The notes under the pieces are model-generated. The model made no database searches, was not told where the DNA came from, and was given only the letters and a program-made list of their open reading frames with translations. DNA of 64,000 nt. Source: Ectocarpus siliculosus. Lineage: Eukaryota > Sar > Phaeophyceae > Ectocarpales > Ectocarpaceae. Positions 2,540-54,942 of the stretch are shown here, piece after piece. The stretch lies in contig FN648707.1 in the NCBI GenBank assembly GCA_000310025.1, forward strand, positions 553,137 to 617,136, written 5' to 3'. Positions within the stretch are counted from its first letter, which is position 1, and every line of letters starts with the position of its first letter. Made by a program: the position numbers and the translations under genes.

Positions 2540-4118
2540 GCAAAATATTGAAAACGCCTGCTGAAGGGATTGGGTACGTTGGACACGTTTGGTATGTTAC
2601 TGCTCACGTTGAAAGATGGATAAGGGTGAATCAACGTGCAGTGACTGCGCATTGTGGTGATCGTATACCAATAGAGCCGAAAACGTAGTCGTCGGAGTTT
2701 TCCCTCCTTTTAAGAGCCTCCCCCCCCCATCACCTATGTATTCGGGTTGGAGGCGTGAAATCGGAGTTTCCCCCTACGAGCAGATCGTATTTCTCCCCCC
2801 TTTCTCGATTCCCGCCCGGGGGGAGGTTGGTGTCAGAAAAAGAACCCACCTCCCGGCGGTGGAAAACCTAGAACGATAACGGTATTCAACCCACCGAAAG
2901 GTCATTGAATACTAACGACAACTGCGCAATCGTTGGAGAATGAAGTAATCAATCTGAGCCGCGTGTACTTGAAAGTCAACGGGGCCACACAAGTTGTATG
3001 TAACGTTTCTGTCGCGTCACGACTAATCATGACCTACTTCATCCCCCCCAACGTCAACTTCACCCTCCCCCGTCTTATCCACAAGCATGGGATTTCCCTC
3101 TGTAGGTAAATGGCAGATCAAGAGTGTCTTGGCGTTCGTCTGCCCAGTGATAAGTGTAAACTTCTTTTGCACGAATGCATTTAGCACAGCTTCAGGTGCC
3201 GACTATGTTGTCGTGGGTGTGGTGCCTCGAGACGATTGTTAGCACGTTCGCATCTGTCTTCGGTCAGCCGGCTGTGAAGGCATTCGAGGACAAATTTCCA
3301 TACAAAGTGATGGGCACGAGAAGAAATTACGATGGTTCCTAAAAATGGTAGATAATGTGTCGGCGAGCAGTCAAAAGCGCTGCAAGAGTCATGTAACGAG
3401 GAACACACGCAGGAAGTAGGTACTTGGTTTCGATCGGGATGACGGTAGAGTAAACTCCAGCCTAACGATTTCACGACAATATCAAATGGGCTGACGAGCC
3501 CGAGTCGAGATACAAAAATACAAGCGGTCCACAGCGGCACGGGAATAACTGCTCGTCGGCGACATGTATCTCCTGGCCTGAACGAGGAGGAAGATGGGTC
3601 GACTCCGATATTCAAGCATACCATGGTGCCCCCGAAGTGATGTTGTGTCGTCGGAAGTCAGGCATCGCCTGTTTGGTGCCGCGTTGTCAGTACTTGCCTA
3701 TTTTTCGTTGTTGTTCCGGTAGTAGAATGGAGCGTTCCGAGGGAACCTCCGATCTATATCGCCTTCATATCCGTTGTCTTTCTCTCTCTGTTTATTTTCC
3801 CTGATTCTTTTTCTCTCTTTCGTTGTGGTTCGTTCCTTCATCCCTTTTCTGATCGGGGTCGATCGTCTGTACCCCGGTTAGGAACCTTTTTTCCTTAGTT
3901 GTTTCCTTTTTCTTCTTTTCGTTTAGGTAGAACAAACAAAATCGCGCACGGGAGGAATTATTCTGGTGTCCATTTTTTAGTTTTAGAAAGGTATACCCCG
4001 TTTGGGGCAGTTAGCTTGTGACCACGGAAGGCGTGCGCGTCAGTTGTACCAGTACTATACTATAGTATACGGATGTTAAAATGTACTGAGCGGAGACCGG
4101 AGCGGTTTTATTGTGAAG

Positions 4119-7705: not shown

Positions 7706-8139
7706 ACATAGAGGCGAAAGGCCTTGCCGCATAGGACAAAACGCGTTGTCCCTGGTCGGTAGTTCCAGGAGTAGCGGAGAAGGTAGTCATGTAAAGCTTG
7801 ACGGTTGAGCTCGAAATTGCAGGTTGGGCTGTGTTTCAATACCCCTGTGTCAGAAAGGAAATAGCGCTGATTTCAGTTTTATGGCGCGTTCTTCACGTAT
7901 CAACCATGCCTTAACAGCTGCTTCTTGGCCGATTCGTTCTGTTGTAGCTTGTGCTTGCACCAGAAACGGTTTGGGCATCTTTTGCTCGGGTGCTCCTTGT
8001 CGTGTGATTTTTTGTTTGTTTGAGTCGGTGCGATCGATCCCACAGTCACCTCTTCATCGTTTTCCCTTCCTTGTCCCGTAGCTCTGTTTCGTTGATGCAC
8101 GTGGGGTGCTGACAACACCTTCCTTCCTGCCTGGCTGAC

Positions 8140-9099
8140 ATGAAACGAATTCGTTCTTCTGATGGAAAACAATCCTCGAACAACATCTACCCACTTTTGC
8201 CACCTGGGGAGCGCCTTGCGAAGAGAATAGCCTTTACGCCGGCTTTGAAGGTAGGCTTGTTGGAGGGGGGGGCCAAGCCTTCGGATGCGCAAATGCAGAT
8301 AGCTGTTCGAGACTCCATGTTGAAGCAGTTTCCGATAGTGTCGGGGCAGGTGTACAAGGATGAGCAGCCCTCCATGGAAGCCCCGTTTGGGCGACATGAT
8401 TCTTGTCTGAATGACATGTGGGACGTGTTAGACAAGTGTGCGTTCGCGCACACGCCGGCGGCGCATGGAGACGATTTCGTTTCGGTATCTTCTACGAGTG
8501 CTCGGAGTTCGTCTGCTGTTTCGCGTGTTGTTGCTTCTTCGGCGTTGCGTTCGACGACGACTCCTTCGTGGAGCCAGGGCCGTTCGGCCGCAGTGATGAG
8601 TGTTGACCCTCTTCCTAACGATGATCGGGACCCTTTTCTGCTTCACTACAGTGACTGGCCGTTGCAAGGACACTTCCAAGAGGTGTACAACGTCGCTAGT
8701 GAGATGACTCTAACCAGGAATGATCCGCCATTGTTCACCCCCTTGGTCTCGGCTGAAGAAGAACGCCGCAACGGGCATCGACTATACAAGGGCAAGTGCC
8801 TCAACTGCTTAGGCGAAGACCACTCCTTCAAATCCTGCACTCGTGGTTTCGTTAACGCCACCGGTCTGCTCAACAATGACATCAAGTTCTGCATGGAAAA
8901 AGATCCCGCACTTTGGAGTCGGTGGAAAAAGCGCATGGCCTCATATAGACGCCCTGCAGGACGCAACTCACACCGTAGTCACTCCTCAGGACGCGCCCGC
9001 CGCTCATCTGACAGATGGGACACGAAACAGCCCTCACACACAGAGCCCTCGTCGGAGACTTCCACTTCGGCTAAGAGGGGCTGGAGGGGTAAGAAATGA
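8140..9099 (+). CDS. gag: Gypsy-1 Gag-like protein with CCHC zinc knuckle
   Basis: A 319-codon frame. A zinc knuckle of the form C-x2-C-x4-H-x4-C spans residues 220-233 (CLNCLGEDHSFKSC), followed by a basic Ser/Arg-rich tail ending KRGWRGKK. Such knuckles bind the RNA genome in the Gag particle. The N-terminal half has no motif I recognise but has ordinary soluble-protein composition. The start is the first ATG after the leader. In the truncated right-hand copy this ATG is ACG (59491). The frame closes with TGA at 9097-9099, and the following Pol region is in other frames. Confidence 0.85.
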   Translation: MKRIRSSDGKQSSNNIYPLLPPGERLAKRIAFTPALKVGLLEGGAKPSDAQMQIAVRDSMLKQFPIVSGQVYKDEQPSMEAPFGRHDSCLNDMWDVLDKCAFAHTPAAHGDDFVSVSSTSARSSSAVSRVVASSALRSTTTPSWSQGRSAAVMSVDPLPNDDRDPFLLHYSDWPLQGHFQEVYNVASEMTLTRNDPPLFTPLVSAEEERRNGHRLYKGKCLNCLGEDHSFKSCTRGFVNATGLLNNDIKFCMEKDPALWSRWKKRMASYRRPAGRNSHRSHSSGRARRSSDRWDTKQPSHTEPSSETSTSAKRGWRGKK

Positions 9100-9955
9100 C
9101 ATACCGATGGCGGAGTTCAGCCGGTACTACCGTCAACAGCAACCATCGTGCACCCTTTTGGTGTCTCCCAAGATGTTCGTGTACAACCTACTTCTTTGAA
9201 TACCCCACGCTCCTCAATCACATCTAGTTTCTCGGCCCGCCTCCTCGTCGCCCGCCTCATCGTCTGCTGGTCTTGGACATGACAACCCCACTTCGGCAGT
9301 ACCTTTGTGGTGTGGCGACAGGGAGGCAAGACGTCGAGCGGTTCACCCCTGCTCACCTCGTCGTCTCGGGTTACAGAAGGAACAAGAACCTCGTCTTCTA
9401 CTGTTCGCCAAGACTCTCCTGGTGTTGTCAGCCGGGACTCTTCTCGGACCGCACACGAGCCTTCTTTTACACTCGCCGGGACCCCCGTCGATCCTCCTTC
9501 TCTCTCGCGGCTTTCGTTGTCTTCGTCCGTCCGCCGCCCCCGTGTGACAGCACCTGATACGAATGCGTCTTCCTCTGCTGCCCACCATGTGCTGACTGCA
9601 CCACTGCCATCGGGATCGGATGGTAGTGCCCACCATTCGGTGGAAGGTTCGGCTCCTTTGTCAAGGGGGAGTAGTCAAGAGCAGTCCGTGCGTCAGTTAA
9701 CAAACATCCGTCTGCTGCAGGAACGACTTCTCGTAACGAACAGGTCTTCAATAGCCGAATGGCCTCTGCTAACATTGACCCCGCCGGAGCCGTCGCCCTT
9801 AGGCCGTCCTCCGGACCACGGAGCGCGGCGACATTGCCCGCTCCTGCCTCGCTTTCTGGGTCCTCCCCGTCGGAGATGAGGGCCCGTCCGCTTGGTCAAA
9901 CCCCGCCTGTGCCTGGTGCCCGTTCTTTACCTCTTCGCCCAGCACTGGCTCCGCC
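9100..9955 (+). pseudogene. Ser/Pro/Thr-rich linker between Gag and NADAR
   Basis: Overlapping frames (9273-9557, 9307-9879, 9759-10097) are rich in Ser, Pro, Thr and Arg with no recognisable fold. The frame 9759-10097 leads directly into the start of the NADAR domain, so the linker was probably translated with it. Frame changes make the original path uncertain. Confidence 0.4.
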
Positions 9956-9959
9956 GTTA

Positions 9960-10440
9960 GATGACAAGTGCGAGTACGCTTCGGATGACTTCCTCCCCTT
10001 CTGGAAACCTCCGTCCGTGATCTCGCAGTGGACTCCTTCGGCTTTTGACGTATTGGGGGTACGTTCTTCATGTGGTGAGCAACTTTATGATGTCTGAAAA
10101 AGCGAAGTTGTTTGGGGATATGGCGTCGTATGACAATATTAGGGCTGCAGTAGATCCTAAGACACACAAGGTTGTGGGTCGTAACGTGAGTCCTTTCGAC
10201 TATGCTGAATGGGAGCGTCGTCGAGAAGAGATCGTGCTTTCGTATGTAAATTTGCTCAAAACCATGACATGAAACAGCATCTACTGGAGACGGGTACCCG
10301 CCTCCTTGCGGAAGCCAGCCCCTTCGATCGTGTTTGGGGTATCGGCATGTCTGCATGCTTTCCAGAGGCTAGCGATTCATCCATGTGGACGGCTAGCGGG
10401 AAAAACTTGTTGGAAAAAGCTTTGATGGAAGTTCGACGCC
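9960..10440 (+). pseudogene. NADAR (YbiA/DUF1768-like) domain within the gypsy polyprotein
   Basis: Three overlapping frames together give a nearly complete NADAR domain. Frame 9759-10097 supplies DDFLPFWKPPSV through CGEQ. Frame 10045-10272 supplies MMSEKAKLFGD, VVGRNVSPFDYAEWERR and EEIVLS. Frame 10209-12083 supplies KFAQNHDMKQHLLETGT, EASPFDRVWGIG and LLEKALMEVRRLLRG. The family hallmarks are the E-H/Q-x-M-x-x-x-KA block, the GR block, KFxQN, the ASPxDxxWGIG block and the LMxVR end; all are present in order and spacing. NADAR proteins act on ADP-ribose-type N-glycosidic bonds: riboflavin-intermediate hydrolysis by YbiA, and removal of ADP-ribose from guanine in DarT1-linked proteins. Two single-base frame changes break it here. 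The domain lies between Gag and protease, an unusual place. Confidence 0.85.
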
Positions 10441-12083
10441 TTTTGCGTGGTCATCCCTTGTCTGGCGAAGATTTACCCGCTTCTACTTCTCCCGCGCCTC
10501 CCATTTCGCAGCCTTTTCTCCATGGACATCGACGCATCCACGAGGTTGCTACTACAGGTTCGTCGTCTCGGGAGGACCGGGGCGAAGATCCAACCTGTCT
10601 CCGTTTGGACGCTCCGGGGGACCATGCTCCTGGCGTTCATCCGGTGGCATCGACCTCCGCCTGCGCAGATCAACCTCCTCTTCTGGAACATGGGCCCGAT
10701 CTGGTCGGCGGCACGCTCCTGTTGGACACGGACTCATACATCACCCGGGTTCTGCTACATGGAGGACCTACAGCCACTTTCCAACTCATGCGAGTGGCGC
10801 TGCTGGACTCTGGGTCTCCTGCGTCCTTCGTGTTCGACTCCGTGGTCACCGCCATGATAGACGCTGGAGGTTTGACCGCTGGGAGCGTTTGTGTTTCGCC
10901 CTCTCGCCGTTGGGGTGGGTTTGGTGATGGACCCGCCCTTGTGACCACCCGGTCGGTTCGTCTCACCGTCAATTTTCTTCATGGGCATCGAGTAACCGCT
11001 TCCTTGGCGGTCTGGGCCTGTGTTGGTCCAGATGCTGCCATGGGGCACGCCGTGCTTCTGGGTCGTGAGAGATGGATGCGGTTCAACTCCCGCGTGTTCA
11101 CCACGCTTCCTCACCCTGGACCGGATGGCCGCGTTATGGGCGAACTCACGCTTTCTCCGCGTTTTACAGCTGGCGCTTGCCTTTACGCTACGCACGACGA
11201 CGCTCCTGCCTCCTCGTTTCGCCTTACATATGCAGGGAGCTCGGGAATTTCCTTCGGGCCGGAGCCTGCACTCGTTGAGGTGGACCTCGTTCGTTCTTCT
11301 GGCATGCCTGCGTTGATCGGAGAGTATCGGATATCGTCCCGACCCGAAGTCGGTGCGTTTTCGTCCCCAGATGCGTTCGTTTCCAATGGTTTCCAGCGTA
11401 TTCTCCTTGCAGGTTGTTCGGAGCTGGAGCCGGGAGATGTTATTGGAGTGTCTGCCGCGCCGACATTACGAACACCGGTGGAAACCTTGAAGGCGGCACC
11501 ATCTTCGATTCCTACCGGCCCCACGGCCTCTACATCACCACCTCGGGTCAACGTCGTTGACCCCAAGTCCGGGACTCACCGCTCTCCGGACCCAGCCTCC
11601 GCCCCGCCTCCTCCGAAGCCGCCTCCACAAGAACTGCTTGACCGCTTCTCTGAGGCACAGCGCTCCAGCTTCTCACACTTGTGGGCTAGGCTGCCAGCAC
11701 ATGTGCACGACATCGCTTTCGATTTACACAATCCGGGATGGACGCCGAAGGCTATTGATCGTTTGGCCGACGCCCTTGTCGAGTTTTCTGACGTATTCTC
11801 CACTTCGAAAACCGATTTTGGTTCCTGCACCATCATGCCATTCACTCTTTCTGTCCCAGCAGGGACGAAGCCCGTTGCATCACGCCCATATCGTATCAAC
11901 CCGTTATTGCAAAAGAAAGTGGATGCCGTTTGGGACTTGGCGGCAGGACTCATTCAGCATTCCACTTCCGTGGGCTTCTCCTTTGGTTGCCATCCCCAAG
12001 AAGGACGGATCGGTTCGCATCACCGTCAACTACAAGCGTCTCAACGCCCTGGTGGATTTGGATGGGCAGCATCTCCCTCGTGA
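10209..12083 (+). pseudogene. pol: Gypsy-1 Pol frame: NADAR C-half, retropepsin, RT fingers
   Basis: The frame opens inside the NADAR domain. After a Pro/Ser linker it carries an aspartic protease: ALLDSGSPASFVF with the catalytic Asp codon at 10806-10808, and LLGRERWMRF about 80 residues later, the retropepsin ILGRD-type block. From about 11640 it becomes the gypsy RT N-terminus (FSDVFSTSKTDFG, then FTLSVPAGTKPVASRPYRI). Near 11970 the RT continues in another frame (11557-12261), marking a frameshift. Retropepsin would cut the polyprotein; RT copies the genomic RNA. Confidence 0.8.
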
Positions 12084-12757
12084 GGACGGTATCCTGGATT
12101 CTCCGTACACCGGGAAAGTGTTCCCCATCTTCGACCTCAACTCGTCTTTCCACCAGATCATTTGTGATGAAGACACTGTCCCGCTCACCGCCTTTTGCAC
12201 TCCCACGCAGCTGTTCGAATGGCTTCGGATGCCGCGGGGAGCCAACGCAAGTCCGTCCTGATTCGTCAAGGTCATCAACAGAGTGGTACACGGCCTGGAG
12301 CGTGTGCTAGCGTTTCTGGACGATGTCACCTGTTTCGATGAGGAACCTCTGGGACACGTATCTGTTTCGATGAGAAACCTCTGGGACAGCATATCTGGAC
12401 GATGTCATCTGTTTCGATGAGGAACCTCTGGGATACGTGCTCAACATGATCGAGTTCTTCAAACGGTTGCGACAGTACAACCTCAAGCTGTCTCCGGGGA
12501 AGGTTCGCGTCGGCGCCACACACGTAAACGTCCTGGGTTACACCATCTCCCCGGCCGGTGTTAGCCCTGATGGCGTCAAGGTTAGGTCGCTCACGCACAT
12601 GCCGCCGCCAACGAGTGTTCAGCAACTTCGGACCCTTCTCAGTAGACTCAGCTACTACCGGAAATTCCTCAAGAATCTCGCCACCAAGGTACGGCCTCTC
12701 AACTCTCTTCTCAAACAAGGCGTCCCCTTCAAGTACACCCCGTCAAAACGTTGTTAA
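11950..12757 (+). pseudogene. pol: Gypsy-1 reverse transcriptase palm and thumb, broken
   Basis: Visible motifs are PLVAIPKKDGSVRITVNYK, PIFDLNSSFHQI (motif A Asp), FCTPTQLFEWLRMP (motif B) and AFLDDV (motif C catalytic Asp pair, about 12312-12327). A TGA at 12258-12260 replaces what is usually an aromatic residue in 'P-x-F'. Directly over motif C the sequence is locally triplicated (12316-12441), which shifts the frame. The thumb region resumes at 12437-12757 with LGYTISPAGVSPDGVKV and LRTLLSRLSYYRKFLKNL, typical of gypsy RT. Confidence 0.85.
12316..12441 (+). repeat. Local triplication over the RT FLDD motif
   Basis: Unit 1 is 12316-12361, unit 2 is a shortened copy 12362-12394, and unit 3 is 12395-12441. 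Units 1 and 3 both begin CTGGACGATGTCA and share GTTTCGATGAGGAACCTCT. The 79 extra bases are not a multiple of three, so Pol is frame-shifted at its catalytic site. Confidence 0.9.
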
Positions 12758-13689
12758 GCGAACTCGTACGCCCCCCGATTTTGGTCTTCCCGGATTGGGC
12801 GGCGGTCGAGGACAACAGCCGTACTCTACGTTTGTGCTCCGACGCTTGTATCGACGGCTTTGGTGCCTCCTTGGAACAAGAACAACTCGATGGCTCGGTG
12901 CGACCCGCTGTGCATATCAGCCGCGCTACTCTTCCTGCGGAGCGTAACTGGACCATTCTTGATCTGGAGGCTGGTGGTATTGTTTGGGCCATCAAACGTC
13001 TTCGTGGTTATCTGTGGTCGACCAAGTTCATCATCTATTCGGATCACAAAACCTTGGAGAGCATTGGCAAGGTTGGTGAACACAACGCTAGGGGGCAACG
13101 GTGGCTCGAGTTTCTGTCCAATTTCACCTACACCCTGGAATGTCGGACAGGTTCGGCCAACGGCAATGCGGATGTTCTTTCGCGGCTGCCTTTACCAGCA
13201 CAAGACACGGTCAAACCGGCCCTGATTGCATTGATGGTGTCGATCAAGCGGGTGTTTTCCTCATTCGGGCTTGCGGGCTCAAATACCACTCTTCGTCTAC
13301 GCCGGAGGTCGGTTTGGGTGGGCTCCGCCCTCCTTGCCCGGCGGGAGTTTTTTCGCCCCCCTGCGCTGCAGCCTTCCGATGTTGGGGATTTTCGCCGGCA
13401 TCACCCGCGCCGGTTGGATGCTCCGACGGACTCGACGACTCCCTGCGATGATTCTCGGCGATCTCCGGGGGTCTTCATGGTCTCGCCTGTCCCCGGATCT
13501 TCAGGGCCTGTTTCCCCGTTGACTCCTGCTTCGTCCCGCGTGATGTCTTCGGTCGTGTCTTCGGCGACTAGGTATGTGCACGTTTTATCTTCGCTTCCGG
13601 AGCGGGGACCGCTCATTTTATCCATTGGTGCATGTAGGTACTCCTTGAACCCAATCCCTTTCAACATGCCGTACTTCTTCACCGACTAG
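12751..13689 (+). pseudogene. pol: Gypsy-1 RNase H and following spacer
   Basis: The first ~150 codons are a Ty3/gypsy RNase H: LRLCSDACIDGFGASL, WAIKRLRGYLWSTKF, SDHKTLESIG and GNADVLSRLP, which removes the RNA strand after reverse transcription. The frame stays open to 13689, but the remainder is Ser/Pro/Arg-rich and looks like the start of the long spacer before integrase. The frame differs from the preceding RT thumb, so a break lies near 12740. Confidence 0.85.
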
Positions 13690-14412
13690 GGCCAAGACTA
13701 CCGCTGCTTCCGGAGGCACCGTCACCGGTCCCGCCTATTTCGGACCCCAGCCGCGGGCTACCATCGTCTCTCGGACATCGTCGCCTGTCCGTCGCTCTAG
13801 CAGGTCCTGCTCGACGACCAAGACCACCCGTACCGCCGCGCGTTTGCTGCGGCCATCCGCGACATCGGCATCGGCGGTGTCGTCGACTGCCCCTGCGCCA
13901 CTGGTGTCTTCGCCGTCATCGGAGCACCCTGCACCCCCGGTTCGCCTTCCATTCAGGTTTCGCTCGGGACTTCGCCCCTCATGATGTCCTTCACGGACAT
14001 CGCCGACTGCGGCTGCCTTTGTCGCTGAGGCTTCTCCTTCTCCTGAGGCTTCTCCTTCTCTTCCGTTGGATCGCCTGACTTTCTAGTGGAATCTACTGAT
14101 TTGGACACCTCCCACTTGCGGGCTTGTGTCCAGACTGTCAGCACTGTGGATTGGGTTAGGGAACAACAGCGGAAGAGCGAATGCGTCGTGGCTATGCGTT
14201 TTTTGTCTAGAGGTTCTCCCTCCCCATCCCCTCCTGACTTGCTAACTTTCCGTGCTCCTCTTCCTTCTCCTCGGTTAGACAATGTGCTTGCGTTGGCGGC
14301 GAAACCCAGATCGCACACGACCGACGATAACATCACCCTCCTAGTACAGAAATCGACGCCGTCGCCGATTTGGCGCTCTGGCGGCAGGACGACTCGTTTA
14401 CCGGATACTTGA
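13231..14412 (+). other. Ser/Pro-rich spacer between RNase H and integrase
   Basis: About 1.2 kb with no known fold. Near 14086-14280 the peptides SHLRACVQTVSTVDWVREQ and CVVAMRFL resemble the antisense gypsy-2 (ADLDVRASVERFSHTDWARE and CDAAIRFI near 63.15-63.25 kb). The spacer is therefore a conserved part of this gypsy lineage and not an insertion. Confidence 0.55.
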
Positions 14413-15542
14413 GTGCCCCGTGTCTACATGCCAATGCTGATGCGTCCGTGGGTCCTCCGTGCATTCCATACCGCCGCGTCCTTCCATCTCGGCGTTCATC
14501 GTACACAGCGTCTGCTCGAGCGTTTCTACTGGTGGATTGGTTTGGACACTTCCGTTGGTGGCTTCGGGCGTGTTAGGTGTGCCAAGCTCGCAAGACTTCG
14601 CATCAGACTACTCGGTGGCCCGTCATCGCTATGCCATTGCCGAAGGTGCCTCGTACGGTCGTCGGGGTCGACTTGTTCGGACCTCTGCCGGTGACTGCCA
14701 AGGGCAACTTCTACATCTTGTTGTTCACAGACCGTTTCAGTCGGAGAGCCGACATGTGCGCGGTCACAGCGGCTGAATTCACGGCGAAAGGGACGGCTCA
14801 CATATTCATCCACCAGTACATGACCAAATGGGGATGTCCGACTACGTTATTGTCGGATAACGGGCTGCACGTTTGCTCGAAGCTCCTCCATGGCAATCTA
14901 CGAGGAGATGAAAATCAAGAAAGTCACCACAGCTCCTACCACCCGCAGACCAATGGAGGCACGGAACGCGTCAATCACACGATGGCACAGATGCTTGCGG
15001 TGGTGGTCAACGAACAGCAAAACGATTGGGACGTGCATCTCCCGCACGTCGAGTTCGCCTACAACAATTCCGTGAACCAGTCTACTGGGTTGGCGCCAAA
15101 CGAGATCCACATCGGGTGCATTCCACGACTTCCGCTTTCGGTCTTCGATCATCCCACGGTCGGTGGTCATCAAAGCTTGGCCCGGGACCAACTCGAGTAT
15201 TGCAACCTGGCTGTTGATCGCCAGCGCCGGGCCTACGATCTTGTCCGCGAGTACAACGCTCTGAATATTTCGCGAGTCGAACGCCGCAATTCATCCCTGC
15301 TGGACGCCATCCATAAGCTCCCTCAGTTTACTGTTGGCGGGTGGGCTTGGGTGTACAACACGGCTGCTCCGATTCGACACGGTGTGCGGAAGGACACAGA
15401 CCAACAGGTGCTCAAGGACAAATTCGCACTGTCCTGGACGGGGCGTTACAAAGTCTTGTACTGGTCCCGAGAGATTTGCCACAGCAAGCAGGTAACCGCA
15501 CTTGTCGAGTGGCTCGGACTCGCGCGGCACAGCGGGAGCTAG
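14413..15542 (+). pseudogene. pol: Gypsy-1 integrase
   Basis: The His pair of the HHCC finger (FHLGVH) is in frame 14413-14694. The Cys pair lies in the next frame, split by TAG at 14574-14576 (C, stop, V, C). The core from 14577 has VGVDLFGPL (first Asp), LLSDNGLHV (second Asp) and YHPQTNGGTERVNH (Glu), the DDE triad that inserts the cDNA. Then come LPHVEFAYNNSVNQSTGLAP and LKDKFALSWTGRYKVL, typical of the gypsy integrase C-terminus. There is a frameshift near 15500. Confidence 0.9.
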
Positions 15543-15910
15543 CCCGGAATCGTGGCGAACGCTATTGGCCTCCTGCGGCTGATCTTGTGCTTCACGAGAC
15601 ATGGCTTCGTCGTTTCAGCAATTCGCCCCTCCCTGTGGGCGCGCGACTGTGGTACAAGGCCCGCGATGGCTTGTGGTGGACCGGACGTATTGGTGCTCAT
15701 CAGGACGGCTCGTACATCTGTCGATTCTTGGATGACCCGGGCCCAAGCGTTCTCCCTCTGCCGGCGCACCTCTACTCCACCGCCTTGGACGCCGTCTGTG
15801 GATCATGGTGTTTAGAGAAACATCGTTCGCGCCCTTTGGGCGACACCCGTGGTCACCCTCCGCTCCTTACTGACTCCTTACCGTCGGCTGTTCTCAAGAT
15901 TTCTTCTTAG
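15500..15910 (+). pseudogene. pol: SH3/Tudor-like C-terminal tail of gypsy-1 Pol
   Basis: After RNRGERYWPPAADLVLHETW the frame encodes VGARLWYKARDGLWWTGRI and DGSYICRFLDDPGP, then a short tail to the stop at 15908-15910. The V-G-A-x-x-W-Y-K-x-x-D-G-x-W-W-x-G-x-I pattern followed by a strand and an Asp-rich turn looks like a small SH3-fold/Tudor-like barrel. The same block occurs in the diverged antisense gypsy-2 at about 61.30-61.42 kb. Gypsy tails often target chromatin with a chromodomain; none is visible in this copy. The Tudor-like label is inference from pattern only. Confidence 0.55.
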
Positions 15911-16099
15911 CGTCGACGTTTTTGTGTACGGGTTGGCCTATTTTGGTCTTTTGTGGCCTCCTTCTCGTCGGCGTTTGGCTTTTTTTGCCTTCCGTTTTGT
16001 TTTCTTTTGGTTGTTGTTTGTTTTTTTTGTCTTGTCTCTTTCTTTTTTTTTGTTTTCTTCTTGATATGACATGTTTGCTTGTTTTGTGTTTTGAACGTT

Positions 16100-16104
16100 G
16101 GGGC
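16100..16104 (+). repeat. Target-site duplication GGGGC (left)
   Basis: The five bases directly before the copia 5' LTR, identical to 21332-21336. Confidence 0.9.
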
Positions 16105-16353
16105 TGTTCGTGGGTCTGCGAACATTGGTGTTGGATACATGTGCTGTATGACTTGATGTCACGCAGATTGGCAAGATTGCCGTTTGGTAGGGGGCACCGT
16201 GATGAGTCACGGGGCCCCTCCTTGCTGCTGGAGCTGCTCTGTGTGGAGCACTCCCTCTTTCGTCCGTGTGAAGGACGGTCGCCTACCTCTCGTGAAGTGA
16301 ATACATCACCGAAACAGTCTCACTCGATAAATAAGTGGCGTAGGCCGCAAACA
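16105..16353 (+). repeat. Copia 5' LTR
   Basis: 249 bp, TGTT...AACA. It aligns end to end with 21085-21331; it has two extra bases (TA in GGATACATG) and seven substitutions by my count, about 97% identity. Confidence 0.95.
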
Positions 16354-16398
16354 CTCAAACACTCTAGAGTTTTGCCCCTCGAGGGAAGCCACATTGGG

Positions 16399-17463
16399 AT
16401 GAGCTCTACCGGAGATGAGGTGCCCACTGCTGCGAGCGGAGAACAGATCCGCCCGCCGGTGGAGGAGGGCCGCGATGCAGAGCTTGCAAGTTTGCAACTG
16501 CAGATTTCGCAATTGGCGGCCCTGGTGGAGGAGTCGATGAAGAAGAAGGAGCCTGGCAGCGTCGTGGCGGATGCAGCCAGTAGTGGCGGCTGGGTTGCCG
16601 CCACCGGAGGCCAAGATCAGCCCCTGCAGCCGCACGGCGGAGGCGGGGGATTTCTCCAGCAGCAAGCGAGAGATGGTGGGCAAGAAACACGGCAGCTGCT
16701 GGAAGGCGGCTGGGCCAGCAGATTGGGAGCGAACCCTGCGAGACCAGCCGGAGTGGGACCGGGCATAGGACCGGACTACGGGGAAGCGAGGGGGTTAAAC
16801 CCCCCAGGTGAGATACCCGTGATTCGAGGAAATGGAGAATACCTCGACGGCTACAACAGTAGCCACCAGAAAAGAGTGACGGTCAATGCCCCGCTTCTAG
16901 ACGGAAAAAGCCGTAGCCACGGATATTATTCGTGGCGAAAATCGTTCATCCAAGCTCCGAAGACCATCGACTTGGACGGGCAGTTTGTAGGGGATGCAGA
17001 GAGCAGTATCCTCGTGGGCGACCCAAACTTGCCGACTTCCGAACTGCTCCGTAGTAGGGGGCACACGAGAGCAGAAGTCCAACGAGGGCTTCAGGCGTTC
17101 CATTTTGTCACTACTGCTGTGGTAAAAGAAGCTGACAAAGCAATCGTCAGTAACTGTACGTCGGCGAAAGAGGTCCTCGCGGAATTGGAAAAGGTCTACG
17201 ATCCAGAGTCACAGGGGTCAAAACAGTCCTTGATGCGGAAGATGTTCGACTATGCAATCCCCACACACGGCAACAGCAACCCCATCGAGCACCTCTACTC
17301 ACTCGAGCTGCTGTATGCCCGCCTGCGTGAAAAGGGGCTCAATGCTGAACGACCCTTCGTTCTCGCCCACTTCGTCGGTTCCCTCCCACCCGAGTACAAC
17401 AAGCGAAGTTCCTGTTGGAGACAGCGACGGCGCTGGATAGAGCCGAGATCGTCAGGACCGTGA
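16399..17463 (+). CDS. gag: Copia Gag N-terminal part
   Basis: The frame is open through the LTR, but the natural start is ATG 16399, 45 bases after the 5' LTR. A coiled-coil-like segment (ELASLQLQISQLAALVEESM) is followed by a Gly-rich linker. The copia Gag/UBN2-type core then includes GYYSWRKSFIQAP, FHFVTTAVVKEADKAI, AKEVLAELEKVYDP and NPIEHLYSLELLYARLREKG. The frame slips after LPPEYNKR and stops at 17461-17463; the zinc-knuckle part continues in other frames. Gag forms the particle that packages element RNA. Confidence 0.8.
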   Translation: MSSTGDEVPTAASGEQIRPPVEEGRDAELASLQLQISQLAALVEESMKKKEPGSVVADAASSGGWVAATGGQDQPLQPHGGGGGFLQQQARDGGQETRQLLEGGWASRLGANPARPAGVGPGIGPDYGEARGLNPPGEIPVIRGNGEYLDGYNSSHQKRVTVNAPLLDGKSRSHGYYSWRKSFIQAPKTIDLDGQFVGDAESSILVGDPNLPTSELLRSRGHTRAEVQRGLQAFHFVTTAVVKEADKAIVSNCTSAKEVLAELEKVYDPESQGSKQSLMRKMFDYAIPTHGNSNPIEHLYSLELLYARLREKGLNAERPFVLAHFVGSLPPEYNKRSSCWRQRRRWIEPRSSGP

Positions 17464-17687
17464 GCACGGTGCACGCGAGCCTCCCGTAGGGGAGGAAGGC
17501 CCCGAAGGGCCAGGGAAGGGCGGAGCATGCTATCCTCGCGAGCGATGGTAGCGGCGGGGGAGGAGCGCCGGGCCGCGGCAACAGCGGCCGCCGCAAGGGT
17601 GGCGACGGCGGCGGCAACCAGAAGGGGAGAGGGGGCGGCGCGAAGGCTGGTGGCGGCGGCGGAGGCGGCGACGACGATGCGGGTAGC

Positions 17688-18326
17688 ATGCGCGGTCGCT
17701 GTTTCCGGTGCGGCAAGAGGGGCCACCAGGTGGCCAACTGCCCCGAGAGCAAGCCCGTGCGATGTGAGACATGCAAGGGCTACGGGCACGACAAGAGCAA
17801 ATGCCCGACCGAGGAGGCGGTGCTCGTCGTGGAAGTGCCGGCGGGGGGGGCGTCTGCGGATGCCACAGCACTGGACGTGGCAGAAGAGGCGCTGGTGGTC
17901 GGTGACATCTCAGGTGAGTGTCACAGAGTCGTTGGTCGAGGGGGTGTAGAGCAGGCTAGGCGGGGGAGGTATGTTGCCGATACCGGCGCTACCACCTACA
18001 TGTTCGCGAACTCAGATGGGTTCGTTCGTTACGAAGAGTGTGATCGACGTGTGCGCGTCGCCGCAGGAGAAACCTTCCCTATTGTAGGGTATGGCGACGT
18101 GACGGTAACCCTTAGCTCGCGCGACGGTACTACCGACCTGTTGTTGAAACGGGTTGCACACGTTCCCCGACTAGATTACAACCTAGTATCTTTCACTTCC
18201 CTATTCGACGACGGGTTCGAAAACAAAACCCTCAATAAACACGAGTTGGAATTGGAGAGAGGGGGGGGGGAGTCGGTGTACTTCCCCCGATGCGGTGGCC
18301 TGTACGTTCAGAACGGTTTCCGATAA
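17688..18326 (+). CDS. pol: Copia nucleocapsid knuckles and protease
   Basis: Two zinc knuckles lie in tandem near the start, CFRCGKRGHQVANC and CETCKGYGHDKSKC, both C-x2-C-x4-H-x4-C. About 75 residues later comes the retropepsin active site YVADTGATTYMF, then VGYGDVTVTL and HVPRLDYNLVS, the usual end of the copia protease leading to the GAG-pre-integrase region. The frame stops at 18326. The apparent ATG is internal to the original Gag-Pol frame. Confidence 0.85.
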   Translation: MRGRCFRCGKRGHQVANCPESKPVRCETCKGYGHDKSKCPTEEAVLVVEVPAGGASADATALDVAEEALVVGDISGECHRVVGRGGVEQARRGRYVADTGATTYMFANSDGFVRYEECDRRVRVAAGETFPIVGYGDVTVTLSSRDGTTDLLLKRVAHVPRLDYNLVSFTSLFDDGFENKTLNKHELELERGGGESVYFPRCGGLYVQNGFR

Positions 18327-18329
18327 CTG

Positions 18330-19300
18330 TCCGAACAAGCCTATGCCGCAATTGCTCCTGGTAGCGCGAAAGCGCCCAACACCCCCGTTGACATCAAATA
18401 CTTCCACTGCGCGCACGGCCACTCCCACGAGGTGCTGCTGAGGACCACGGCGAAGCAGCAGGAACGACGCTGGAGGGCGAGCTCCGGGAGTGCCTGGGGT
18501 GCTCGACGGCGAAGGGGCTTTCCAAGCCCATCCCCACAAGACGTCGACCCGAGCAGTTAATAAACTGCAGCGAGTGTTCGTGGATTTGAGTGGAAAAGCT
18601 AGGGTGCAGAGCTTGGGGAGGGGAAGTGGTACACTCTCATTGTCAAGGATGATTACACAAGGTGGAACCGTGTCTATTTCCTGAAGCACAAATCAGACGC
18701 CGCTGAGGCATTCGAGAGGTACCTTGCAGAAAACCGGGCAGACGGTGCCCCGTCCGATGTCATGGTCGTGAGATCCGACAATGGAGGAGAGTTTTTTTGA
18801 GGGAACGTTCTTCAAGGTGTGCCGGAAGTACTGCATCAAACAGGAGTTAACCCCCGCACACAGCCCAGAATACCACGGTGTACCTGAGAGAGCACTGGGT
18901 CTGATCAAGGATGCAGCACTAGCCGCCCGTATCCAAGCGCCAACTCTTTACCCCGGAGCACCGAACTACCCCTCCCTTAGGGGCTAGGCCATAGCTTGGG
19001 CATACAACGCCCTGAACTGCACCTCCACCACATCCAACCCAGAGAAGAAATCGCTGTACGAGATGTGGCACGGGCACCCTCCCCTCCGGGGGCGACGTAC
19101 CCGTTCCTCAAACCTGCCGTATACAAGGTCAAGCGCACACACAAGTCAGAGCGGAAAGCCCAGAAATGTTTTACCTCGGCCCTGTAATCAACACCAACCG
19201 TGATTGCGTGCGCATCCTGAACGAAAAACGCCAAGCGATAACAACTCGCAACTTCACCTGGCAATTGTACCCGCCGCCCCCACCGCCCTGCCACAGTCGC
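18330..19300 (+). pseudogene. pol: Copia integrase, frame-broken
   Basis: A GAG-pre-integrase/HHCC region lies at about 18400-18540 (HCAHGHSHEVLL, then a Cys pair before STAKGLSKP). The core has VFVDLSGKA (first Asp), VVRSDNGGEFF (second Asp, about 18770-18795) and YHGVPERALGLI (Glu). One T too many in the run at 18792 changes frame after GGEFF. Further along are AYNALNCTSTTSNPEKKS and YEMWHG, standard copia integrase tail motifs. Several frames are needed, so no enzyme is made from this copy. Confidence 0.85.
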
Positions 19301-20856
19301 TGCCTCCCACCGCAGAGGAGGAAGAGGAATTCGCGACTGAGGAGGACGAGGTTGGGGAGGACGCGTCGAGCCAAGGTGGAGGGAAGGCGGAGGGAGAACC
19401 TGTGGATGGAGGACCAGGTTTCAACCTTGGCACGACGGCAGCCCCGAGTCCCGCGGGGCAGCCCGCGCCCCAGGAGTCGGGCGCGGGCGACGCTGGCGAT
19501 GGCGCCCTCTCGAGCAGGGAGGGCGCGAGCGTCGCCCCATCTACCACATCGGCCGGCATGGTCGATGTGGGCGGCGGCGAGGACGACCGCCGCAGCAGCA
19601 GCAGCAGCCGCGGTAGCGGCGGCAGCGGCAGCGGCAGCGGCAGCGGCAGCGGCAGCGGCAGCGACAGAGGCAGCAACAGCAGAAGCGACAGCGGCATCAA
19701 CAGCGGCAGCGGCAGCGGCAGCGGCAGCGATAGCGACAGCGACAGCGAGACGGATCTCCTGGCGCTCCGCGGGCCAGAGGCCCGGCGGCTCGCCCGCTTC
19801 GACAAGCTGGCGGAACTCACCAGCCGCCGCACCAGGGAGAACCCTCGCAGAAACCCGAGGTACGAGTCGCCCCCGTCGCCGACAAGTGCCGAAGCCCTGC
19901 TCGCCTCGGTGGCGAGCCTGCCCGTCAGCAGCACGGAGGAGTTCACCCGCTGGATGCTCTCGGCGGTACTTCACGTGACGGAGGGGCTAGAGGCGAGGGT
20001 GGTGCGAGAGTTGCTGTTCGAGCGCGCGGAGGAGGCCCACGCTGCGCGCCAAGAAGCGGAGGACTTCCTGCTGGGTGCGGTGGACCTCATGCTCAACTCG
20101 CCAGACGCCTTCGAGACGGCTCTGGCGTCCCACGAGCTAAGTGAATCCCCCATAGGACCGAAGCGAGATGATGAGAAGGGAGGGGAGTGGCCGGTGAGGG
20201 AGGCCATCCGCAGCATGATGTGGGTGTCGACGTTCTCGCGTCCAGACGTATCGTTCGCCGTGCGTGCGGTAGCGCGCCACGCCCACGCCGCGGCGAAGAG
20301 GCACTGGGATGCAATACAGGAGATCCTCGGCTACCTAAAGCAGACAAGGGACCTCGGCATCACCTACCAACGGGGATCGGGGTTAGGGCTGGCCGTGTAC
20401 GTAGACGCTAGCTATGCCGACACGGAGGACAGGCGTTCGGTGTCAGGGTTGGCAGCGACGGTTGGAGGTACCGTAGTCAGCCATAGTAGCAAGACACAGA
20501 GCATTGTGTCTTTGTCTTCGACGGAAGCCGAGTACGTTGCTGCTGGGGAGGGCGTCAAGGAGGCGTTGTTTGTGCGTGCTGTGCTTTCGTTTGTTGCCCC
20601 AGAGACCAGTGGTAGCAGCATCCAGGTCCTTGAGGACAGCCAGGGGGCCATAGCGTTGGTGCAGAACCCCCTCAGCTCAGGTCGCACGAAACACATCGAC
20701 GTGAGGTTTCATTTTATCCGCGGATTGTTTAGGTCGAGGGATATTTCGGTCAAGTTCGTTCCGACAACGGAGCAACACGCGGACATCCCAACCAAAGCCC
20801 TTAGCAGGGCCAGTCTGCAGTACCACCGGCGCAAGTTGATGAATTTGCCGGAGTAG
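19204..20856 (+). CDS. pol: Copia Pol C-terminal ORF: acidic/Ser-Gly linker fused to RNase H, RT core missing
   Basis: A 550-codon open frame. Residues ~35-110 are acidic and Gly/Pro-rich, ~130-185 are a Ser-Gly-Asp repeat (from (GGCAGC)n DNA) and ~200-320 are Ala/Glu-rich. Then come the post-RT connection (EWPVREAIRSMMW, FSRPDVSFAVRA, ILGYLKQTRDLG) and RNase H with all four acidic sites: VYVDASYA, SLSSTEAEYVA, EDSQGAIAL and QHADIPTKAL. Copia RT (about 240 residues with a YVDD site) should lie before the connection and is absent. The junction is near HELSESPIGPKRDDEKGGEW, about 20150-20190. The deletion kept the frame open. Confidence 0.85.
   Translation: MRAHPERKTPSDNNSQLHLAIVPAAPTALPQSLPPTAEEEEEFATEEDEVGEDASSQGGGKAEGEPVDGGPGFNLGTTAAPSPAGQPAPQESGAGDAGDGALSSREGASVAPSTTSAGMVDVGGGEDDRRSSSSSRGSGGSGSGSGSGSGSGSDRGSNSRSDSGINSGSGSGSGSDSDSDSETDLLALRGPEARRLARFDKLAELTSRRTRENPRRNPRYESPPSPTSAEALLASVASLPVSSTEEFTRWMLSAVLHVTEGLEARVVRELLFERAEEAHAARQEAEDFLLGAVDLMLNSPDAFETALASHELSESPIGPKRDDEKGGEWPVREAIRSMMWVSTFSRPDVSFAVRAVARHAHAAAKRHWDAIQEILGYLKQTRDLGITYQRGSGLGLAVYVDASYADTEDRRSVSGLAATVGGTVVSHSSKTQSIVSLSSTEAEYVAAGEGVKEALFVRAVLSFVAPETSGSSIQVLEDSQGAIALVQNPLSSGRTKHIDVRFHFIRGLFRSRDISVKFVPTTEQHADIPTKALSRASLQYHRRKLMNLPE
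19609..19745 (+). repeat. (GGCAGC)n microsatellite within the copia linker
   Basis: Runs of GGCAGC/GACAGC hexamers encode Gly-Ser and Asp-Ser dipeptides in the Pol frame, and poly-Ala in both other forward and reverse frames. The long antisense and shifted ORFs over this stretch are by-products of this repeat. Confidence 0.9.
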
Positions 20857-21084
20857 CTGTAGCTGATTTTAGCACTTGCACTGGACTTTCTAAGAAGTGC
20901 GGCCGTTGTGATCCGCTGTGAGAGCGACGGTTTCTTTTGTGGTGGTAGGGTTTTTTTTTTTCGAGGGGTTTTGCCCGGACGCCGGGTTTCCCCTCCACAT
21001 ATTACCATGTTGGTATTTCTGATGTATCCAGGGGCGTTTTTGCCCCATTGATGGTTAGTCACTTGCGTGAAGAACCAGGGAGGG

Positions 21085-21331
21085 TGTTGGTGGGTCTGCG
21101 AACATTGGTGTTGGACATGTGCTGTATGATTTGGTGTCACACAGATTGGTAAGATTGCCGTTTGGTAGGGGGCACCGTCATGAGTCACGGGGCCCCTCCT
21201 TGCTGCTGGAGCTGCTCTGTGTGGAGCACTCCCTCTTTCGTCCGTGTGAAGGACGGTCGCCTACCTCTCGTGAAGTTAATACATCACCGAAACAGTCTCA
21301 CTCGATAAATAAGTGGCGTAGGCCGCAAACA
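21085..21331 (+). repeat. Copia 3' LTR
   Basis: 247 bp, TGTT...AACA, preceded by a purine-rich tract AGGGAGGG (21077-21084) suitable as the plus-strand primer. Followed by GGGGC, the target duplication. Confidence 0.95.
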
Positions 21332-21336
21332 GGGGC
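21332..21336 (+). repeat. Target-site duplication GGGGC (right)
   Basis: The five bases directly after the copia 3' LTR, matching 16100-16104. Confidence 0.9.
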
Positions 21337-22914
21337 AACACCGCGCCAAGACAAGCGGTGTCACTTGTCCGCCTTCACCGCTCGATACTTGAGAGCCCGG
21401 CGATGGCCTCCCCCTCTCGGTCGGGTTTCCCGGTTTGTCCCTTTTCGGGCGTTCGAGTGATCCTTCTTCTTTGTTGCCTGCATTCGTCTCAATCAGTGAA
21501 CTGCCGCGACTTGGATATACGTCCTCTCTCTCGCCTTTTTCCTGCTTTTTTTGTTGTTGGTCCTTGGTTCTCTCGACGGGCTTCCTCTGAAGTTTCGTCG
21601 GTGTTGTTTGCCTCTGAACACTAGGAAAAAGAGTTCCCCAAGCTTCCTCGGTGTTTTTTGCCTCTGAATACTTGGAAAAAGAGTTCCCCAAGTTTCGTCG
21701 GTGTTGTTTGCCTCTGAACACTTGGAAAAAGAGTTCTCCAAGTTTCGTCGGTGTCTTTTGCCTCGGAAAACTTGGAAACAGAGTTCCCCGCGTTTCCTGG
21801 TTCGCCTTTTTGCCAACTAATGTTTGTCTCTTTTAGCTCCATCGTGCCGCAGAAAGAAGTGTCGCCTACGCCTATTGCTTCGGGATTCCATACCGTTGCG
21901 TCGCCTTCTCCCGTGGCCTTTGTCGACTCTCGCCGTCGCCCACACTTCGTTCTACTTCGTCTCCATCATCGCCACCTTTGAGCGACGCCTTCATCACCGT
22001 CGAGCTTCTGAGTCGTTGTATTGTTGTGTGTATATCTCTACGACTTTTCTGTGTTTAATGTCTTCGTACGTTGCGTATCGCCAGCGAGACGTGGCGCGGT
22101 TCGTCAGATCGCTTCTCCGGCTTTGATCGTTCGTGCTTTGCGTCATTGGTTCTCTTCATGTCTTGCCTTTGCCGTCTCTTTGTGCGGTTTGGGTAACCTG
22201 GCCAGCTGGGAATTGTTCTCGGTGCCCTTGCCTGCCGTTCATTTCTTCTGCCCGTCCTTGACGTTCTCCAAGATTGCGTTGGGTTTCCCTTCGCGTCGGG
22301 TCCAGTATCAAAGGCCGTATTCGTTCGGAAATTTGTTTTGGTTTTGAGTTTTGTTGACGTATTTTGGACTCTCTCGTGTGTCGGCCTTCATTCCTCCAGT
22401 TGTGATACGCGCGGGTGAGCGTAAAAGAGTAATGTGTGGCGTTTGGATTTTAATTTTGTTTTCTCTGTCGTCGTCTGTTGGGAGTAGTGTGCTCTGCAGC
22501 AATATTCTTCCTAGCTTTATCCCTTCATTGGTGTAAGCGTTGTCATTGAGATGTCGATGCGTCGTCTTGTGATCGTCAGCGTCCTTAGTCTCAATGGTGG
22601 TGTGGGGGGTAGATTCGGGATATTGCTACAACTCACCCTCCTTTTTGATATTTTGTGAAGAGTCATATCTTCGATTCAGGATCAAATATCATCAGCTAAA
22701 TCTTATTGTAGCTTCTAGGATTTGAGCATTGAATCTTCATTCATACGTATATAATGATATTCAGGGTGGGCTAGTGTTAAGGAGTGTGGCTGCTCGCATG
22801 AATAGGGTTCATCATATTGTTCATAGGATGTGGCATGTGGTGGGATGGTCGGGAGGTATTCCTTCTTGTACCCGTGCCCCCCCCACTAGAATTGTCTACT
22901 CTGTGTGCCCCCTG
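21337..22914. other. Flank resuming after the copia insertion; no recognisable gene
   Basis: This continues the sequence interrupted at 16104 and may be the 3' untranslated part or LTR of gypsy-1, but it matches nothing upstream of gag that I can see. It is pyrimidine-rich with short ORFs only. A 50-bp minisatellite lies at 21591-21790. Confidence 0.4.
21591..21790 (+). repeat. 50-bp minisatellite, four units
   Basis: Units 21591-21640, 21641-21690, 21691-21740 and 21741-21790 each begin AGTTTCGTCGGTGT or a close variant and contain GCCTCTGAA and GGAAAAAGAGTTC. The period is exactly 50 bp throughout, with a few substitutions per unit. Confidence 0.95.
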
Positions 22915-23088
22915 AGATGAACTTGGATCCCCACTTCATCTCAGACCCTTGGTGATCGTCTCTGAGCAATAACAAGCAACGTTCCCATCTCTACGTGGCC
23001 GTGGACAAGAGTATCAACGACAGAACCTTCATCTACCCCTAGGAGCAAGCTACCGTCTACGGCTTCGCCTCCTTAAAACCCTTCTGAC
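22915..23088 (+). pseudogene. Gene-like remnant with in-frame stops
   Basis: One frame reads LDPHFISDPW, stop, then NNKQRSHLYVAVDKSIND, RTFIYP, stop, EQATVYGFASLKPF, stop. Codon third positions are strongly G/C and the composition is protein-like, unlike its surroundings. Two internal stops (TGA, TAG) suggest a dead exon. I recognise no family. Confidence 0.3.
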
Positions 23089-52664: not shown

Positions 52665-54942
52665 CAATGAAACAAGAAAACTATGGAAAACACCTGCTGA
52701 AGGGATAGGGTACGTTGGAAACGCTTGGTATGTTACTGGTCATGTTGAAAGATGGATAAGGGTGATTCAACGTGCGGTGACTGTGCCCATTGTGGTGAGC
52801 GCATACCAATAGAGCCGAAAACGTAGTCGTCGGAGTTTTCCCTCCTTTCAAAAGCCTCCCGCCCCTATCACCTATGTATTCGGGTTGGAGGCGTGAAATC
52901 GGAGTTCCCCCCTACGAGCAGATCGTATTTCTCCCCCCTTTTTCGATTCCCGCCCGGGGGGAGGTTGGTGTCAGAAAAAGAACCCACCTCCCGGCAGTGG
53001 AAAACCTCGAACGATAACGGTATTCAACCCACCGAAAGGTCATTGAATAATAACGACAACTGCGCAATCGTTGGAGAATGAAGTAATCAATCTGAGCCGC
53101 GTGTACTTGAAAGTCAACCGGGCCACACAAGTTGTATGTAACGTTTCTGTCGCGTCACGACTAATCATGACTTACTTCATCCCCCCCAACGTCAACTTCA
53201 CCCTCCCCCGCCTTATCCACAAGCATGGTATTTCCCTCCGTACTATGCATACAGGTAAATGGCAGATTGGCGTTCGTCCGCCCAGTGATAGGTGTAAACT
53301 TCTTTTGCACGAATGCATTTAGCACAGCTTCAGGTGCCGACTATGTTGTCGTGGGTGTGGTGCCTCGAGACGATTGTTAGAACATTCACATCTGTCTTAA
53401 GGTCAGCCGGCTGTGAAGGCATTCGAGGACAAATTTCCACACATAGTGATGGGCACGAGAAGAAATTACGATGGTTCCTAAAAATGGTAGATAATGTGTC
53501 GGCGAGCAGTCAAAAGCGCTGCAAGAGTCACGTAACGAGGAACACACACAGGAAGTAGGTACTTGGCTTCGATCGGGATGACGGTAGAGTAAACTCCAGC
53601 CTAACGATTTCACGACAATATCAATTGGACGAACCCGAGTCGAGATACAAAAATTCAAGCGGGGCACAGCGGCATGGGAATAACAGCTCGTCGGCACCAT
53701 GTGTCTCCTTGCCTGAACGAAGAGGAAGATGGGTCGACTCCGATGTTCAAGCATACCATAGTGCCCCCGAAGTGATGTTGTGTCGTCGGAAGTCAGTCAT
53801 CGCCTGTTTGGTGCCACGTTGTTAGTACTTGCCTATTTTTCGTTGCTGTTCCGGTAGTAGAATGGAGCGTTTCGAGGGAACCTCCGATCTCTATTGCCTA
53901 TATTTCCGTTGTCTTTCTCTCTCTCTTTCTTTTCCCTGTTTCATTTTCTCGCAATCGTTGTGGTTCGTTCCTTCATCCCTTTTTTGACCGGGGTCGATCG
54001 TCTGTACCCCGGTTAGGAACCTTTTCCCCTTAGTTGTTTCCTTTTTCTTCTCTTCGTTTAGGTAGCAAAAACAAATCGCGCATGGGAGGAATTTTTCTGG
54101 TGTCCATTCTTTAGTTTTAGAAAGGTATAACCCCTTTGGGGCAGTTAGCTTGTGACCACGGCAGGCGGCGGCGTCAGTTGTACCAGTACTATACTATACT
54201 ATACTACACGGACATTAGAAGGTACTGAGCGAGACCGGAGCGGTTTAATGTGAAGACAACAACAACAACAAGTTACGGCTAGGAACTAGGAAGGTATGAA
54301 GGCTTGAGACGCATGTCGTCGCAGCTAGATGCTACACTCACACGGGTCATTTGCGATATTTCGTTCAACAGGTAGCTTCCGTGAGCAAGCGGTGACATGT
54401 TCATAACAGAACTACCATGGGCACTACCACCTCCGGTTCCTTTTACCTCCTTGGCAAGACTTCAAAAGAATGCCGGTACCACTCCCCCCCCCTGCGAAGA
54501 TGTCCCAAATAAGGGGTCTGCATTAGTGCAACACCATTATATTCGCGCATGTTTCAGGCATCTTTGCATTCATTGACAAACGTGAGAGAGATGCCATTGT
54601 TAGGTGGTATGATGACTACGACGAAGATAGTTTCTTGAGATTATGCATTGTTTGTGATTCTTGGATGGTAGCCAATAACGAAGGATTCATTATTCCCTGC
54701 GGAAGGAAGATTGTTGGGCATGTATCGGGTGCAAATGGAGTCAACTCGACACCCTCGAACGAGACGCTAACACGCAACTATCTCCATCCATCCGCCTTGG
54801 CCAAAGCGGTTGTTTTGGCGGGAATTCCACAAGGCCCCCATGTGGGTCTTGTATCGGCGTCGACGAGACACTTTTCGGTGAACCCACCTTCCATGATAGT
54901 ATGAAAATTGTACAAGAACATGCTTGGGGACACAAAAGAACC

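Follow-up and report, generated by a model that had tools for sequence, protein, structure and literature searches.

NADAR domains have already been described in retroelements. One paper (Genome Biol 2025 26:320, PMC12477816) reports NADAR in one of the four Gypsy lineages of Ectocarpus, for example Gypsy-12_Ec32, and in ORF1 proteins of Tx1 LINEs in Crassostrea gigas, guesses at a role in RNA processing and proposes horizontal transfer from bacteria as the source of the domain. A search of open-licence PMC papers by title and the start of the abstract brought up no further report of NADAR in transposons. The elements analysed here resemble Gypsy-12_Ec32 in carrying NADAR within an Ectocarpus Gypsy, a likeness drawn from the published description rather than from sequence, while the Tx1 LINEs, likewise known by description, share the presence of NADAR in a retroelement but belong to another element class. 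The core finding, NADAR in Ectocarpus Gypsy, is thus already published; what is new here concerns the joint between Gag and Pol, the likely origin of the domain and its presence in other retroelements.

Outside retroelements, a NADAR from Phytophthora nicotianae, described as a stand-alone protein, has a structure (8bau) in which 11 residues contact ADP-ribose (PMC11543638). Sources on NADAR biochemistry describe hydrolysis of ADP-ribose from guanine by other NADARs, not by one from an element, and describe E. coli YbiA as acting on riboflavin intermediates. A glutamate at the position of E125 in the Phytophthora enzyme is given as the mark of the YbiA subfamily (PMC11543638, PMC11125620); the DarT1-linked antitoxins (BC4488) carry an aspartate there.

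A decayed Ty3/gypsy copy in the window

We analysed a window of 64,000 nucleotides of the Ectocarpus siliculosus genome (contig FN648707.1, positions 553,137 to 617,136) and identified a Ty3/gypsy element at approximately 8274-23079, all of its features lying on the forward strand. The element is decayed and truncated at its 5′ end, and a Ty1/copia insertion divides it. Its homology to the intact genomic copy L041 begins at 8274, and a 5′ LTR was not found. With the 5′ part missing, it opens with the C-terminal part of a Gag frame (8274-9096, within an open frame at 8113-9099) that gave no Pfam match. Gag is closed by an in-frame TGA (9097-9099) followed by C, a readthrough-type context that recurs at this joint in 23 of the 43 loci, and a possible 6-bp stem, drawn by eye, pairs 9108-9113 with 9130-9135 (9108-9135 overall) and starts 8 nt past the stop. 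Pol begins with a poorly conserved linker (9100-9995), which changes frame near 9685 and was matched in tblastn pieces (9106-9995) at 72 % and 75 %.

The NADAR domain is encoded at 9999-10457 in a reading frame broken by two compensating frame shifts, and matches the NADAR of L041 at 63 % (tblastn). The original prediction, made from the letters of the sequence, had placed a NADAR between Gag and the protease and proposed an HMM search against PF08719. This search bore it out, with pieces 10021-10269 (E 7.6e-11, profile 39-95) and 10209-12080 (E 3.9e-18, profile 95-163) both matching above the curated Pfam cut-off; the N-terminal piece (9675-10094) gave no Pfam match when scanned alone. The domain had been read in three frames. 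There are only two: one is shared by the pieces starting at 9675 and 10209, and the piece between them, which starts at 10021, uses the second. The last frame had further been thought to run open into protease and reverse transcriptase (RT), and it does span the protease and pre-RT regions (10209-12083), but the RT homology (11989-12360) lies in a different frame.

Downstream of NADAR, the Pol pieces of L041 follow one another in the window in their proper order (tblastn), the reading frame changing both from piece to piece and inside pieces. The protease region (10455-11369) is 90 % identical to the intact relative, although the aspartyl-protease family RVP_2 was detected in a sister copy only and below its cut-off (E 0.043). 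It is followed by the intervening pre-RT region (11367-11969, 88 %), RT in two frames (11989-12550, 91 %; RVT_1 at E 1.8e-5 in one piece, below cut-off), RNase H (12724-13134, 92 %; RT_RNaseH at E 1.1e-24) and integrase in two frames (14308-15233, 85-86 %; rve at E 0.0002, below cut-off). The 3′ part is interrupted by a Ty1/copia element at 16101-21331, delimited by LTRs at 16101-16353 and 21082-21331 that form a 96 % pair and containing a copia-type gag just below the Pfam cut-off (E 5.8e-6). Gypsy homology picks up again past this insertion at 21590, and the remainder (21590-23079), including the 3′ LTR at 22774-23079, is 80 % identical to L074/L075, whose own LTR pair measures 299 nt. The window copy is a dead member of a Ty3/gypsy lineage.

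Other features were also observed in the window. Tandem repeats of 50 nt at 21540-21839 are partly common to the 3′ region of the intact gypsy copy L074. An integrase piece of another gypsy element, which resembles the NADAR lineage distantly (36 % identity to the L041 integrase), lies on the reverse strand near the window end (62157-63008). The stretches 3858-3935 and 53993-54065 are 85-87 % similar to sequence that lies immediately beyond the 5′ LTR of the copy on contig C476, and are probably a separate repeat.

NADAR-bearing Ty3/gypsy families in the Ectocarpus genome

A NADAR search of the host genome (189 Mb, 492 contigs) returned 230 candidates, of which 150 were scored, so that the genome has at least this many matches; all 150 scored above the family cut-off, and most of the matches listed cover the profile from position 1 or 2 to 163. 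The window copy is not among the 150 listed. The search for intact gypsy copies with NADAR that had been suggested at the outset was productive: at least 22 of the matches listed lie in open frames of at least 2,000 codons with no stop inside the match, a count that excludes two frames (10,887 and 6,365) stretched by runs of N and includes one on contig C89 with a frame-shifted NADAR middle and at least one other containing some N. We followed 44 loci (L001-L044), representing 39 distinct places, and labelled the element families a to f by sequence; NADAR is present in at least six. Thirteen copies were chosen from the 44 loci for an alignment (A1), with broken copies such as L037, L038 and L039 omitted, and it contains 62 invariant columns.

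The lineage shows the Ty3/gypsy order of protease, RT, RNase H and integrase behind Gag, with LTRs, the protease resting on the match at E 0.043. Two Pol frames each contain Pfam matches to NADAR, RVT_1, RNase H and the zinc-binding domain of integrase, and one of the two also to rve; a third frame, which is shorter, contains NADAR and RVT_1, and two Gag frames of the lineage gave no Pfam match. The LTR pairs of the two copies compared were 99.0 % (315 nt) and 99.7 % (299 nt) identical.

Mean identity across six family representatives (15 pairs) was 64 % for NADAR; RT (70 %) and RNase H (72 %) were somewhat higher and the protease region (57 %) somewhat lower. In the same 15 pairs the stretches flanking NADAR were 26 % (linker before) and 40 % (spacer after) identical. 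Estimates of dN/dS for NADAR in four overlapping family-c pairs were 0.14, 0.12, 0.12 and 0.21. Families d and f gave 0.06 with dS near saturation (2.9), the family-a pair L035/L032 gave 1.22 on only five changes, and dS was saturated in four wider pairs. Since the between-family identities are comparable and dN/dS is low in the family-c pairs, NADAR is conserved about as tightly as the core enzymes, and the sequences indicate that intact relatives keep the domain under selection.

These data bear on whether NADAR is a passenger or a chance match, that is, a host gene fragment present in one copy only, a reading to which the frame-shifted state of the window copy might seem to lend itself. The window is 89 % identical to L041 at the DNA level from 8274 to 12359 in a single BLAST piece, and because this piece passes through NADAR without a break no flanking insertion scar is seen. 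Together with the many copies in at least six families and the core-like conservation, this continuous alignment refutes the passenger reading, which we consider scarcely conceivable. The domain is therefore the element's own, as had been proposed.

The joint between Gag and Pol

In the longer frames Gag and Pol occupy one frame split by a single TGA. In 43 loci, corresponding to 38 distinct places, we scanned upstream from NADAR for the first in-frame stop and found it to be the Gag/Pol TGA in 23 loci or 19 places (family a, 6; b, 2; c, 6; d, 2; e, 2; f, 1); a different stop lies nearer to NADAR in the other 20 loci. Across these 23 loci, from all six families, the TGA is always followed by CA or CT, and in seven of 13 longer loci Gag continues 5′ of the stop over 340 to 1,254 codons without leaving the frame of Pol. 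A UGA-C joint between Gag and NADAR-Pol in six families is new here: the terms readthrough, stop codon and frameshift are absent from the main text of PMC12477816.

UGAC is described as a leaky stop context, and type II readthrough, known from alphavirus and tobravirus replicases, as using UGA with CGG or CUA as the next triplet and, in most cases, a stem-loop that begins about 8 nt 3′ of the stop (PMC3542737). The elements resemble this type in UGA-C and in a possible stem at about 8 nt, but differ in that the triplets are CTN or CAN rather than the CGG or CUA listed there, and in that the stop joins Gag to Pol. A stem of 5-10 bp about 8 nt past the stop could be drawn in all six families, using one copy of each. 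Against shuffled sequences it gave a probability product of 0.018, a post hoc value not clearly above chance, and one of the two family-d copies (L031) breaks one of its pairs. A common stem after the Gag/Pol stop may thus be considered a possibility. A stimulatory RNA structure past the UGA drew no support from 21 single-sequence folds (seven sequences, three lengths), whose z values ranged from -2.2 to +1.5.

Rare readthrough of the UGA would produce a Gag-NADAR-Pol fusion, through which NADAR would be packaged with RT in the virus-like particle, making the UGA-C joint a testable route for entry of the enzyme into the particle. In the Tca2 element, as described in PMC2194720, the flanks of the UGA alone gave no readthrough in yeast and the stop may be bypassed otherwise, so Pol could possibly be made here by a route other than readthrough.

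Active site, subfamily and possible function

We mapped 8bau onto A1 via a HMMER alignment, in which the chain numbering runs two above that of the paper and all 11 residue letters agree. Nine of the 11 ADP-ribose contacts (E43, K50, K75, R79, W89, R93, E125, D130 and W133) are identical in all 13 copies; the Y84 equivalent is F in all 13 and the D86 equivalent is variable. The equivalents of the catalytic residues E43, K50 and E125 are also legible in the NADAR pieces of the window. On the evidence of these residues, the predicted active site is nearly complete.

The fold was tested on a model of P0007, a database protein from a short contig, rather than on the window copy; P0007 groups with family c in the tree, from which we infer that it sits in an element. 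The model (pLDDT 96) has as its best PDB match the ADP-ribose-bound NADAR 8bau (E 6e-13, TM 0.91) and as its second YbiA (2b3w). The element NADARs are therefore like the Phytophthora enzyme in nine of 11 contacts and, through P0007, in fold, and unlike it in residing within retroelements. They share with the DarT1-linked antitoxins the fold family, the catalytic E and K and the lysine matching E. coli C7 K115, but the subfamily-defining position is Glu in 13 of 13 A1 copies, as in YbiA, rather than the Asp of BC4488. Also unlike the DarT1-linked systems, the five element frames scanned contain no ADP-ribosyltransferase (DarT1-type) domain up to E 0.1.

From a domain, a degree of conservation and a place behind UGA-C that can all be read in the sequence, we infer a packaging, a substrate and a benefit. 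As a tentative reading, which we hold to be a real possibility somewhat short of probable, a packaged Gag-NADAR-Pol fusion would act as an ADP-ribosyl-guanine hydrolase that keeps element RNA and cDNA readable, the domain having been captured from a host gene. NADAR would hydrolyse ADP-ribose, or a related N-glycosidic adduct, off guanine of the element RNA or single-stranded cDNA and so remove adducts at which reverse transcription would otherwise stall, whether they come from host ADP-ribosyltransferases or from damage. In bacteria DNA ADP-ribosylation is a form of defence, and a lineage with an apparently complete hydrolase offers a place to test for a eukaryotic counterpart.

The YbiA-type glutamate in all 13 chosen copies could instead point to a NADAR acting on small molecules near RT, such as NAD or ADP-ribose derivatives or reactive nucleotide or riboflavin intermediates. 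Such a role can be likened to that of the dUTPase of some retroviruses, which cleans the nucleotide pool. Riboflavin intermediates are the substrate described for E. coli YbiA, and a survey (PMC9503650) argues that soluble ADP-ribose derivatives may be the preferred substrates of viral NADARs; the same text, however, sees macromolecular ADP-ribose as the target of NADARs in polyproteins of eukaryotic RNA viruses. A Gag-Pol fusion would also keep the enzyme in the particle, an arrangement better suited to a bound nucleic-acid substrate, and we regard the small-molecule role as rather unlikely.

Alternatively, catalysis may be irrelevant and NADAR may serve as a module binding ADP-ribose, RNA or DNA in packaging or integration targeting. 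Nematode SNA-3 is an example of the RNA-handling proteins described as containing a NADAR (PMC9303266), and Ectocarpus Gypsy lineages are reported in PMC12477816 to carry chromatin-reader domains as well. The invariance of the E43, K50 and E125 equivalents in six families is perhaps more than binding would need, an argument tempered by the use of the same three residues in ligand binding; a pure binding role nevertheless strikes us as quite unlikely.

Origin of the element NADAR

The host also has a cellular NADAR gene, L051 (contig C24:2125000-2127300), which we read as four exons, three of them 83 %, 90 % and 95 % identical to a protein of Ectocarpus sp. 13 and the fourth 62 % identical in an alignment that covers part of it. 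A cysteine-rich stretch at the N-terminus of L051 was noted by eye.

An unrooted tree of the core domain (73 rows) placed 16 element-type NADARs in one group (100/95), comprising 12 from elements and P0007, P0008, P0018 and P0030, assigned by their place in the preceding tree. Six cellular NADARs, namely that of the host, four from named brown algae and P0022, grouped at 100/100. Joining the element and brown-algal-type NADARs gave a tree 2.64 log units worse than the free tree (AU p 0.435). The core tree thus keeps the two apart yet does not reject their union, and the core alone is not decisive. In the earlier tree of 80 rows the gypsy NADARs had fallen apart and long-branched rows had clustered together; seven rows (four viral loci, P0005, P0006 and P0042) were dropped. 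Both trees used the first 48 of the bacterial or unassigned rows returned, and many rows counted as bacterial are metagenome proteins.

Outside the core, an EY motif exactly nine residues upstream of the core FW occurs in 11 of 116 proteins (nine of 117 with a stricter pattern). Its carriers are the element-type P0001, P0003, P0004, P0007, P0008 and P0018 and five brown-algal-type proteins, with none among the 105 others; at the motif position genome families a, c, d, e and f carry EY and family b EH. When the N-terminal motif columns were included, element and brown-algal-type NADARs formed one group (100/90), which adjoins Chrysoparadoxa (99/96), with P0010 the nearest among 50 bacterial or unassigned proteins. 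This tree, likewise unrooted, was built from the first 50 remaining matches without P0026, P0027, P0042, the viral loci and second family copies, and since the motif had been seen beforehand its support is partly post hoc and comes from few columns.

Because the motif-inclusive tree joins the element and brown-algal NADARs, capture of a host gene is favoured over direct transfer from bacteria, and the element NADAR was most likely captured from a stramenopile host's own NADAR gene. If true, this origin would replace the direct bacterial transfer proposed in PMC12477816. Direct capture from viruses is not suggested, as the seven viral NADARs in the core tree form their own group (100/99); they derive from 22 NADAR loci found on viral contigs, of which 12 were taken and 11 passed a length filter.

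NADAR in other putative retroelements

Searching long proteins with the gypsy NADAR gave five matches, three of them gypsy-type by their domains, and a search with P0006 gave eight, P0006 included. P0133 (2,178 aa) contains NADAR at 155-307 followed by rve, SH3, a Tudor domain and RVT_2, a domain content that identifies it as a Ty1/copia polyprotein. P0006 combines NADAR with RVT_1; among PDB structures, those of Ty3 and retroviral RTs match its RT. P0005 contains NADAR and a C-5 cytosine methylase. P0130 contains NADAR together with SET and matches Phage_integrase below threshold (E 0.00048); neither of these two has an RT match. The C-termini of P0005 and P0006 show, by eye only, a tyrosine-recombinase-like HxxR...Y pattern that drew no confirming profile match. 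The equivalents of E43, K50, R79, W89 and D130 are all kept in P0133, P0006, P0005, P0130 and the polyprotein P0132; among these five, R93 is kept only in P0133, which has Y in place of W133, and P0005 lacks E125.

It is conceivable, if doubtful, that NADAR has been captured repeatedly, by Ty3/gypsy elements, by the Ty1/copia element represented by P0133 and by the candidate tyrosine-recombinase elements P0005, P0006 and P0130, the placement of P0005 and P0006 being unreliable in the one tree that holds them (80 rows). The Tx1 LINEs in print would add one more capture. Repeated capture, if true, would imply that retrotransposition is impeded by a so far unrecognised barrier, the ADP-ribosylation of RNA or cDNA of retroelements, and that NADAR serves to counter it, a reading we hold to be equally doubtful.

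Other long proteins also carry NADAR. The Tudor domain of P0133 is PTM/DIR17-like and placed after the integrase. Two abalone (Haliotis) proteins with NADAR, P0127 and P0128, measure 4,719 and 4,240 aa, and the high score of P0127 suggests that its NADAR is repeated within the protein. P0131, a polyprotein of 3,927 aa, combines NADAR with SET and several further precomputed domains and possibly represents another mobile element or a virus.
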